From contig JAGAMK010000004.1 of the NCBI GenBank assembly GCA_017624735.1, positions 1 to 64,000 on the forward strand: a stretch of 64,000 bases of DNA, in the 5' to 3' direction. This document shows positions 43,742-47,640 of this stretch, piece by piece. The position numbers and the translations under genes were made by a program. Within the stretch, counting starts at the first letter, position 1, and each line of letters starts with the position of its first letter. Below the pieces are notes generated by a model that had not been told where the DNA came from, searched no databases, and saw only the letters and a program-made list of their open reading frames with translations. The stretch is from Clostridia bacterium (GTDB taxonomy: Bacteria; Bacillota; Clostridia; Oscillospirales; Acutalibacteraceae).

Positions 43742-44065
43742 ATGAGCCATAATATTATCGGTGCTTTGGTAACGGCTGTAATCGGTTTCTTGATTGCCTT
43801 TATCAATTATTCTTTTTCGAAAAAAGCTCTTGAAAAAGCTCCGGAAAAATTTTCACTTATAACAGTGGTTCGACAGATTTTACAGATAGGTTATCTCGCC
43901 ATTGTTTATTTTGTTGGTACAAAAATACAAGTTGCAGATGTTGTTTACCTGCTTGTGGGAGCAGTTTTGGGTATGACCATACCAATGTTCTATTTTACAA
44001 AGAAACTTTTGACATTCAACGAAAGTTTAGTTAAGACTAAAAAGGAGGATGATGCAAATGGGTGA
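43742..44065 (+). CDS. atpI: ATP synthase subunit I-like protein
   Basis: A 107-residue membrane protein with four predicted helices, at the head of the ATP synthase operon. The sequence is poorly conserved, as is usual for AtpI, which helps assemble the c-ring or admit magnesium. Helices are seen around residues 5-24, 42-60, 67-85 and 78-90 with charged connections (SKKALEKAPEKFS). The call rests on position and topology more than on motifs. It overlaps atpB by 8 bases, implying coupled translation. Confidence 0.7.
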   Translation: MSHNIIGALVTAVIGFLIAFINYSFSKKALEKAPEKFSLITVVRQILQIGYLAIVYFVGTKIQVADVVYLLVGAVLGMTIPMFYFTKKLLTFNESLVKTKKEDDANG

Positions 44066-44756: not shown

Positions 44757-44987
44757 ATGACAAATTCAGCAATTATCGCAATGGCAGCAGCAATCGCAAT
44801 CGCAATCAGTACACTTGGTCCATCAATTGGACAGGGAATTACAGCTAGGGCAGCTATGGAAAGTATTGCACGTCAGCCTGAAGCAGCAAAGGATATCCGT
44901 TCAACTCTTATTATTTCCCTTGCTCTTATGGAAGCACTTACAATCTACGGTCTTCTTATTGCATTCATGCTTGTTTCAAAAATCTAA
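44757..44987 (+). CDS. atpE: ATP synthase F0 subunit c
   Basis: A 76-residue two-helix hairpin forming the rotor ring. The polar loop is ARQPEA. The ion-binding carboxylate is Glu59 in LMEALTIYG. Gln26 (GPSIGQG) and Tyr64 lie where Na+-binding c subunits have Gln32 and Tyr70 (Ilyobacter numbering), but the position after Glu is Ala60 rather than the Ser found in classic Na+ rings. Ion specificity is therefore uncertain. The AAGGAG site is strong, as is usual for this highly expressed subunit. Confidence 0.96.
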
Positions 44988-45429: not shown

Positions 45430-47640
45430 ATGGAAATACAATATGTAATAATTAACTTTATTATCCTTCTTACAATCCTTGTTGTTGCGGGCAGAAAAAC
45501 CGTAAAGCGTATCTTTGGTGACCGTCTTGAAAAAATCAATAAAGAACTTGATGAGGCTGAAGAACTTGAAAAGATGGAAATTCCTGTTTTCGAGCCTTAT
45601 GTTGAAGACGAAACTGATGATAGAATCAGCGAAGATATTGCCAAGGCACAGGCTGTTGTAGAAGAAAAAATCAATTCAATAAAAGCATTCGGTGAGAGAG
45701 AATATAATGAAATTCATCGTACAATGATAGAGAATGCACGAAAAGAACTTTTCTCTGTTATGAAGGAAAATGTCGTTAAACTTTTCTCTTATGAAAAGTA
45801 TTCAGAGGAAATCAAGGCACTCGATGGACAGGTTTTAGATGCAATCCTTTCACAAATCGGTCTTACTAGTGGCGATATGGCATATCTTAAACACCATGAT
45901 GTGCTTTATGTTACTCTTACATCGGCATTCCCACTTGAAAAAGAATTGGTTGATAAAGTAGATGAAGCAACAAAAAAACTTCTTGAATCAGTTAATGGTA
46001 AAACATCTCTCTGGGTTCTTGAAGATAGTTCTCTTATCGGCGGTCTTAAACTTCGTATCGGTGATACTGTTTATGACGGTACAGTAAGTGAAGAACTTTA
46101 TCAATTTGAAAAAAATATGAACCATGAGCCCATCATGGATGACGATACAGTTGGTCTCCTTATTCAGGAATTCACTCAAAAAGCTGAAGAATTCAGACCA
46201 CAGATTCATAAGTATCAGTTAGGTCGTGTTATGACCGTTTCTGACGGTATCTGTTGGATGGATGGTCTTGCAGATATTATGTACGGCGAGGTTGTCGAGT
46301 TTGAGTGTGGAGAAAGAGGTATGGTTCTTGACATTCAGCAAAACCGTATCGGTTGCGTTATCTTCGGTGAGTTTGAACACATTGAAGCAGGTAGCCGTGT
46401 AAGACGTGTGGGCAGAATTGCTTCCGTTCCGGTAGGTGAATGTCTTTTAGGCAGAGTTGTTGATGCTCTTGGTAATCCTATTGATGCTATGGGCTATCTT
46501 CCTTATGAGAAAAGCAGACCTATTGAGTTCAAAGCACCTGCAATTCTTGACCGTGCACCTGTTAATTCACCAATGCATACAGGTATCAAGGCTATTGATG
46601 CTCTTGTGCCTATTGGTAAGGGACAAAGAGAACTTATTATCGGTGACAGACAGACAGGTAAAACAGCTATTGCAGTTGATACAATCATCAACCAAAAAGG
46701 TAAAAATACAATCTGCATTTATGTTGCAATCGGTCAAAAGGAAACTCTTGTTGCCGAGATAAAAGAAAAATTGCAGTCAAAGGGTGCTATGGAATACACA
46801 ACAATTATTGCTGTTCCTGCATCATCTTCCGCAGCGCTTCAGTATATTGCTCCGTTCTCGGGTTCTGCAATGGCAGAGTACTTTATGTATGAGGGCAAAG
46901 ATGTTCTCATAGTCTTTGATGACCTTTCAAAGCATGCTGTTGCTTATCGTGAATTGTCACTTCTTCTTCATCGTCCTTCAGGACGTGAAGCATATCCAGG
47001 TGATATTTTCTATCTTCATTCAAGACTTCTTGAAAGAGCAGCTCACCTTTCTGACGACCTTGGTGGTGGCTCAATTACAGCACTTCCGATTATTGAAACT
47101 CTCGCAGGCGATATTTCTGCATATATTCCAACAAACGTTATTTCTATTACTGACGGACAGATTTTCCTTGATGCAGAATTGTTCAACGAAGGTCAGCGTC
47201 CTGCAGTAAACGTGGGACTTTCAGTTTCCCGTGTTGGTGGTGCAGCTCAGAGTCCTGTTATGAAAAAGGTTTCATCAAGCCTTCGTACAAGACTTGCTCA
47301 ATACAGAGAACTTGCTGAATTTATGCAGTTTGGTTCCGATGTTGACGATGCAACAAAGGCAACTCTTGAAGCAGGAAAACGTCTTACAGAGGCTCTCAAG
47401 CAAGGCAGATTTTTACCAATTGCCGACGAAATGCAGACTATTCTCATTTTTGCTGTCAGTGAAGGCTATGCAAAGAATGTGGATGTTCAGGATATGGAAA
47501 GGTTTGAAAAGGAACTTTATAGTTTCTTTGAAACTGAGAAGGCTTCACTTGCTCTTAAGGTGAAGACTGCAAGAAAATTGGACGACACACTCAGAGAAGA
47601 ATTGAATAGTGCTCTCGTTGAATTTGTTGAGAGGTTTTAA
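45430..47640 (+). CDS. atpA: Fused ATP synthase b'-like/delta C-terminal/alpha subunit
   Basis: A single 736-residue reading frame. Residues about 4-20 form a membrane helix (YVIINFIILLTILVVAG), and about 25-125 a b-like charged helix. Residues about 155-225 match the delta C-terminal domain (LYVTLTSAFPLEKELVDKV, SLIGGLKLRIGDTVYDGTV). From about residue 236 a complete alpha subunit follows: HKYQLGRVMTVSDGI, Walker A GDRQTGKTA (about 405), SVSRVGGAAQSP. There is no stop or frame break, and no separate delta or alpha gene exists in the operon. The start is ATG 45430 with AGGAT 10 bases upstream. Met230 (46117) and Met236 (46135) could start a free alpha but lack clear ribosome binding sites. 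Three alphas per F1 make the stoichiometry puzzling. Confidence 0.93.
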   Translation: MEIQYVIINFIILLTILVVAGRKTVKRIFGDRLEKINKELDEAEELEKMEIPVFEPYVEDETDDRISEDIAKAQAVVEEKINSIKAFGEREYNEIHRTMIENARKELFSVMKENVVKLFSYEKYSEEIKALDGQVLDAILSQIGLTSGDMAYLKHHDVLYVTLTSAFPLEKELVDKVDEATKKLLESVNGKTSLWVLEDSSLIGGLKLRIGDTVYDGTVSEELYQFEKNMNHEPIMDDDTVGLLIQEFTQKAEEFRPQIHKYQLGRVMTVSDGICWMDGLADIMYGEVVEFECGERGMVLDIQQNRIGCVIFGEFEHIEAGSRVRRVGRIASVPVGECLLGRVVDALGNPIDAMGYLPYEKSRPIEFKAPAILDRAPVNSPMHTGIKAIDALVPIGKGQRELIIGDRQTGKTAIAVDTIINQKGKNTICIYVAIGQKETLVAEIKEKLQSKGAMEYTTIIAVPASSSAALQYIAPFSGSAMAEYFMYEGKDVLIVFDDLSKHAVAYRELSLLLHRPSGREAYPGDIFYLHSRLLERAAHLSDDLGGGSITALPIIETLAGDISAYIPTNVISITDGQIFLDAELFNEGQRPAVNVGLSVSRVGGAAQSPVMKKVSSSLRTRLAQYRELAEFMQFGSDVDDATKATLEAGKRLTEALKQGRFLPIADEMQTILIFAVSEGYAKNVDVQDMERFEKELYSFFETEKASLALKVKTARKLDDTLREELNSALVEFVERF

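Follow-up and report, generated by a model that had tools for sequence, protein, structure and literature searches.

A conserved gene fusion of a b-type stalk and the delta C-terminal domain with ATP synthase alpha in uncultured Clostridia, and its reading as a candidate three-stalk enzyme

In the window, a 64,000-nucleotide stretch from the draft genome of a Clostridia bacterium, the alpha subunit of an F-type ATP synthase is encoded in one frame with a membrane-anchored b-type stalk and the C-terminal domain of delta. We consider it probable that this gene specifies a naturally occurring F-type ATP synthase with three stalks, whose H+/ATP ratio would be very high; the presence of three stalks and of three a subunits, the ratio itself and its physiological use are what we infer. 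Rotary ATPases have been classified by their number of stalks, with one in F-type, two in A-type and three in V-type enzymes (PMC6131620). If the reading is correct, the enzyme would be a natural exception to the one-stalk rule for F-type enzymes, and the H+/ATP ratio of an F-type enzyme would depend on how many stators it has as well as on its c-ring. No report of a b-delta-alpha fusion was found in the literature searched, a search that lay mostly outside subscription papers; three observations appear to be new: that the triple fusion makes up an old, conserved family, that one genome (G126) has it together with an ordinary operon, and that a standalone delta C-terminal domain of 72 amino acids is encoded by genes of its own.

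Layout of the fusion gene and its operon

The fusion is a single open frame of 736 codons that starts with ATG and has no internal stop (Table 1). Along the chain, a membrane helix with a b-type stalk is followed by an acidic, proline-rich hinge, the delta C-terminal domain, a short linker and a complete alpha. Pfam ATP-synt_B matched residues 4–115 with 28.1 bits, barely above the cut-off of 28, and the OSCP/delta profile matched residues 152–230. Because the latter match is limited to profile positions 96–172 of 172, the N-terminal domain of delta is absent from the fusion. The three Pfam alpha domains lie on residues 265–732, and the atpA model TIGR00962, starting at residue 249, scored 718.7 bits against a cut-off of 484.45. 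The P-loop GDRQTGKT is unbroken, beginning at residue 405, and VSRVGG is the arginine-finger motif. These matches uphold the domain reading of the initial annotation, which had assigned b, the delta C-terminal domain and alpha to the 736-codon frame.

Table 1. Features of the fusion gene, of its operon and of the standalone delta C-terminal domain genes (window positions unless a locus is named)
Feature	Position	Strand	Evidence
Fusion gene b - delta C-terminal domain - alpha, 736 aa	45430..47640	+	Pfam, NCBIfam
Residues 1-48, transmembrane helix and start of b helix	45430..45573	+	ATP-synt_B 4-115; model helix 2-48
Residues 49-63, acidic Pro-rich hinge, predicted loop	45574..45618	+	low pLDDT, Pro content, dN/dS
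Residues 64-156, rest of b helix and connection to delta	45619..45897	+	model helices 64-120, 122-140, 147-155
Residues 157-232, delta/OSCP C-terminal domain	45898..46125	+	OSCP positions 96-172; model E-H-E-E-E-H
Residues 233-240, delta-alpha linker	46126..46149	+	loop in model
Residues 241-261, alpha N-terminal helix remnant	46150..46212	+	weak conservation; model helix 241-253
Residues 262-736, alpha proper, GDRQTGKT, VSRVGG	46213..47637	+	TIGR00962 718.7 bits
atpB, subunit a, 225 aa	44049..44726	+	Pfam ATP-synt_A 158 bits
atpE, subunit c, 76 aa, ion site MEALTIYG	44757..44987	+	Pfam ATP-synt_C 68.5 bits
atpF, free b-type stalk subunit, 141 aa	44998..45423	+	PRK08476, Pfam (both sub-cut-off)
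atpG, gamma, 278 aa	47643..48479	+	Pfam ATP-synt 177.7 bits
atpD, beta, 466 aa	48483..49883	+	TIGR01039 764.5 bits
atpC, short epsilon, 96 aa, without inhibitory C-terminal helices	49880..50170	+	Pfam ATP-synt_DE_N only
Standalone delta C-domain gene	L043 6009-6227		confirmed by delta HMM
Standalone delta C-domain gene	L044 6008-6226		confirmed by delta HMM
Standalone delta C-domain gene	L045 6152-6370		confirmed by delta HMM

The operon runs a-c-b-fusion-gamma-beta-epsilon, all on the + strand, so that homologues of alpha, beta, gamma, epsilon, a, c and b, the set that marks an F-type enzyme, lie together. A separate full-length delta, an ordinary F-type feature, is absent, and delta positions 96–172 are found inside the fusion only. 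Judged by these homologies, a complete F-type ATP synthase is encoded here, with the fusion as its alpha subunit. The P-loop and arginine finger of alpha, the arginine of subunit a and the carboxylate of subunit c are all present as sequence motifs. The free b scored 48.2 bits for PRK08476 (cut-off 118) and 24.4 bits for Pfam ATP-synt_B (cut-off 28), both below threshold. The ion site of c, MEALTIYG, is chloroplast-like and of the H+ type; as the site has this form and the Na+ motif is absent, the coupling ion is likely H+. The Gly-rich motif in helix 1 of c is altered, reading GPSIGQG in the window and APAIAQG or FPALGQG in relatives; a changed motif at this place alters c-ring size in other species. 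The short epsilon was rejected as a hallmark of the fusion clade, since ordinary operons of the same order can have one (87 amino acids in G010, 88 in G126). At the atpI position (43742–44065), a membrane protein of 107 amino acids gave no Pfam match over cut-off and no NCBIfam match.

An AlphaFold2 model of fusion residues 1–262 (pLDDT 85.6) consists of a helix, the hinge, a second helix, the delta C-terminal domain and the linker, with a mean pLDDT of 53 for hinge residues 51–60. In VIA-align comparisons, where rows with an rmsd of about 20 Å and above, caused by the long helix, were set aside, the delta part superimposed on Pseudomonas aeruginosa delta over 73 residues at 1.9 Å and on bovine OSCP over 75 residues at 1.4 Å. 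The N-terminal model aligned with chain 9jc1_I of an engineered multi-stalk enzyme over 85 residues at 2.0 Å with 26% identity, and mycobacterial b-delta was among its top structural matches (7nkq_d, 126 residues, 2.5 Å). The model of the full chain is weak in alpha, with a mean pLDDT of 74 and residues 558–606 below 50.

Conservation of the single frame and genomic setting

When GTDB r220 genomes were scanned with alignment A1 of the b-delta part, 91 relatives were obtained, 80 of which were examined. In all 80, with b-delta identities of 35–88%, the b-delta part and alpha share one frame (three reach a contig end), and none of these loci carries a separate alpha. A sequencing or assembly error is thereby excluded, and with it the error between residues 225 and 240 that the initial annotation had named as its possible undoing. 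The broader suspicion of an assembly artefact or of a decayed, silent copy could draw on the fact that the genomes are all drafts, the 80 loci all coming from metagenome-assembled genomes (MAGs), but it is very improbable in view of the 80 single-frame loci across that range of identity, the dN/dS of alpha (0.04–0.06 with three relatives), and the fusion being the sole F-type alpha found in 16 of 19 fusion genomes.

The partner subunits are conserved as well. A free b lies upstream of the fusion in all 80 loci (75 recognised by script and five by eye), with a median gap of 4 bases in the 75 script-found cases (range −8 to 460). In the 80 loci, 74 ORFs of subunit a were recognised, and the arginine motif of this subunit was present by pattern in 73 of the 74, the remaining one reading LAFRLFGN; the c ion-site pattern was present in 71 of 74. 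At E ≤ 0.001, OSCP matched 36 of 36 fusion sequences and ATP-synt_B 30 of 36, the window included.

The draft genome of the window, 97.5% complete according to the tool used, has no TIGR00962 match over cut-off and no OSCP match besides the fusion, so the absence of a further delta or alpha gene, as claimed initially, extends to the entire draft. PF00006 also matched beta and two ORFs of contig C13 (about 51.4–54.2 kb) that have the ATP-synt_ab domain and the lengths of V-type A and B; because of these two ORFs, a V/A-type enzyme probably coexists.

The 19 fusion genomes are the 18 of the order sample, including that of the window, and G027; G013, with 9% contamination, one triple and two double fusions, was excluded from the alpha and delta counts. 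In all 19, the OSCP match of the fusion begins at profile position 95–101. A full delta is missing from 17; the two genomes that have one, G126 and G404, carry it next to a second alpha of the ordinary kind. In G126 the ordinary F-type operon with full delta was read alongside the fusion (L206, L207), and in G404 (L208) it was seen solely as neighbouring alpha and delta matches; if the three-stalk reading is correct, the cell of G126, and probably that of G404, would have two ATP synthases that run in different gears. The second alpha of G410 is a fusion of alpha with the delta C-terminal domain, and a second OSCP match there (positions 34–172) contains three stop codons and was not counted as a full delta. 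The fusion of G177 is cut by a contig end and falls under the TIGR00962 cut-off. Completeness is limited in several of these genomes, the lowest value being 62%, so a second alpha could have been missed in some.

The family forms one clade of uncultured Clostridia. In the order sample, 18 of 394 genomes (that of the window included) match A1 over its full length, and among the nearest genomes 5 of 59, again including it, have the single-frame fusion; in the phylum sample the window genome alone of 398 has the fusion at E ≤ 1e-20. On a tree of alpha sequences, 39 fusion rows (the window, 36 of the 80 relative loci, G126 and G404) are set apart from all other rows by a single branch (SH-aLRT 100), on a long stem of 0.79 changes per column; the tree was built by a quick method from 71 rows, 70 of them different (L024 and L051 are the same locus), holds a part of the alpha loci found and is read as unrooted. 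This topology suggests that b was added once, long ago. Isolate names of the relatives suggest ruminant, horse, rabbit and other projects, and many of these uncultured bacteria are from animal guts.

Junction, hinge and the number of stalks

If the chain is made as encoded, each alpha would be joined to its own stator arm, comprising a transmembrane b helix and the delta C-terminal domain. In ordinary enzymes this domain fastens b at the top of F1, and the delta N-terminal domain, placed on the three-fold axis, restricts the enzyme to one stalk; this N-terminal domain has been lost here. As F1 has three alphas and each carries b, three membrane-anchored arms would result unless the chain is cut. 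Each fused b would pair with a free b from the gene directly upstream, and each stalk would keep an a subunit of its own in place at the c-ring.

The initial annotation had offered two mechanisms, three stator arms or the release of free alpha by internal initiation at Met230 or Met236 or by proteolysis. In the second case, most alpha would be free and one fused alpha would assemble with two free ones into a one-stalk enzyme, in line with the rule for F-type enzymes (PMC6131620). Across 81 sequences (the window and the 80 loci), an in-frame ATG occurs within residues 222–262 in 46, and ATG, GTG or TTG in 66; however, Met230 is kept in only 12 and Met236 in 18, 35 sequences have no ATG and 15 none of the three codons. 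In the window, the Shine-Dalgarno (SD) duplex energies of the two candidates are +0.4 and −1.9 kcal/mol, compared with −4.3 kcal/mol at the annotated start. Across the family, energies of −6 kcal/mol or below were equally frequent, to a first approximation, among the best internal candidates (27%, n = 66) and the annotated starts (28%, n = 81), which are themselves weak, versus 17% of random codons.

The codons of the junction also argue for an unbroken chain. Over residues 222–262, dN/dS was 0.048 against L052 and 0.008 against L055, and against L053 pN was 0.039 with synonymous change saturated; the junction is constrained about equally to alpha, and by these ratios its codons are under strong purifying selection. 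The stretch 227–262 is 36 residues long in 77 of the 81 sequences, so its length is nearly fixed. In addition, a lone arm without the delta N-terminal domain would sit off-centre on F1, as can be reasoned from the work of Ueno et al. on the engineered enzyme (PMC12229609). We therefore disfavour internal initiation, given the unconserved methionines and poor SD energies in the window, and regard mixed alphas in a one-stalk enzyme as unlikely, while three stator arms gain from the analogy with an engineered fusion of the delta C-terminal domain and alpha.

In that work (Ueno et al. 2025), Bacillus PS3 delta was stripped of its N-domain and the remainder fused to alpha (PMC12229609). The resulting deltaDeltaN-alpha FoF1 carried up to three stalks and three a subunits, with two stalks on average, and its H+/ATP ratio was 5.8 versus 3.0; three-stalk particles were rare on grids, stalks being lost during grid preparation (PMC12229609). 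The enzyme encoded here shares with it the missing delta N-domain, the joining of the delta C-domain to the alpha N-terminus, and an epsilon without the C-terminal domain, by design there and naturally short here. It differs in that the stalk of the engineered enzyme is a free b2 dimer, whereas here one b-type helix is covalent with alpha, the whole arm forms one chain, and the partner b is a separate, different subunit. Such a covalent linkage would cure the stalk dissociation seen in the engineered enzyme. Ueno et al. noted that a stably bound multi-stalk enzyme is needed to test the ratio against the number of a subunits (PMC12229609), and the fusion is a natural candidate for it.

A further alternative is that all three arms tether F1 to the membrane, with only one or two recruiting a free b and an a subunit, and that the fusion mainly strengthens the attachment of F1. 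The average of two stalks in the engineered enzyme would fit this (PMC12229609), as would a flexible hinge under relaxed selection, which could permit idle arms: over residues 49–68, dN/dS is 0.51–0.77 versus 0.008–0.12 in the other computable segments, and the hinge has about 3.3 prolines per sequence, with none in 4 of 81. We nevertheless hold fewer stators to be improbable, because every stalk seen in the engineered enzyme had an a subunit (PMC12229609), and because the 80 loci all have a free b upstream and include 74 recognised a ORFs.

With three stalks, energetics would follow from the proposal of Ueno et al. that the number of H+ per turn is c × a (PMC12229609): a c-ring of at least 10 would give about 10 or more H+/ATP, and ATP could be synthesised at a proton motive force (pmf) of a few tens of mV, at or below about 50 mV for 50 kJ/mol ATP by our arithmetic. 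Whether three a subunits fit depends on the size of the c-ring. As a whole, a naturally evolved, covalently enforced three-stator F-type enzyme with three a subunits per c-ring and at least 10 H+/ATP, able to work at a pmf of some tens of mV and of long standing in uncultured Clostridia that live largely in guts, seems to us somewhat better than an even proposition. If true, it would also be relevant to energy conservation in fermenting anaerobes when the pmf is very low. In the window genome the RnfD/NqrB family is represented by two genes, and PF00361 gave no match, a content that appears compatible with a weak ion gradient.

Alpha N-terminal helix and related arrangements

In ordinary enzymes, the N-terminal regions of alpha bind the delta N-domain (PMC8617483, PMC12229609). 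Mean pairwise identity of the 22 residues before the alpha core was 41% in loci with full delta (n = 16), 20% in fusion loci (n = 39) and 18% in double fusions of the delta C-terminal domain with alpha (n = 13), whereas the first 60 core residues gave 58%, 78% and 50%, respectively; sequences were compared without gaps, from a part of the alpha loci found, and one full-delta locus was entered twice. Where delta is fused, the docking helix thus appears to be free of its former constraint. Alphas beside a standalone delta C-domain (n = 3, two of them close kin) keep the helix at 48%, with 72% in the core, and because they retain it though they are without the delta N-domain, they speak against a simple rule of dock loss. 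A delta HMM confirmed the class of 16 of 16 full-delta, 3 of 3 standalone and 10 of 13 double-fusion rows; the other three (L047, L199 and L202) fell short of significance and were assigned by eye, L047 lying near the confirmed L048 and L205.

The double fusions, of 571–654 amino acids, occur at 13 loci in 12 genomes from several families of the phylum (HMM-confirmed: L040, L041, L046, L048, L196, L197, L198, L201, L203 and L205). On the alpha tree they call for five changes, at least three of them forced by the starred branches, and since they are scattered, the double fusion was gained or lost more than once. Putative full delta-alpha fusions of about 700 amino acids, to which long open frames had pointed (G632, G463, G430, G628, G480), were rejected, delta and alpha being separate ORFs. 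Natural delta-alpha fusions in Acidaminococcus fermentans and others are mentioned by Ueno et al. (PMC12229609).

Mycobacterial b-delta likewise has a b helix running covalently towards the delta C-terminal domain; it comprises a canonical delta domain and a duplicated linking domain, occurs as a single copy and has no attachment to alpha (PMC8617483). Here, in contrast, the OSCP match begins at position 96, neither a complete delta nor a duplicated domain is found, and the model shows just two short helices (122–140 and 147–155) between b and the delta C-domain. The likeness to the V/A-type E subunit and to FliH is one of shape only, at Z values that may reflect a common helical arrangement; in the V/A-type stalk, E and G are separate and detached from the catalytic head, whereas here the E-like part is fused to alpha. 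N-type ATPases, described as having beta and epsilon genes first and atpQ and atpR present (PMC5376962), are not matched by the gene order of the window or by its score of 595.6 bits for TIGR03324 (cut-off 750.5).

The standalone delta C-domain genes, from genomes of the same phylum (G026, G033, G051; Table 1), lie immediately 5′ of a normal alpha. Like the double fusions, they share the missing delta N-domain with the triple fusion but have no b segment. The enzymes encoded at these loci have no delta N-domain even though nothing is fused, and they may be multi-stalk too.
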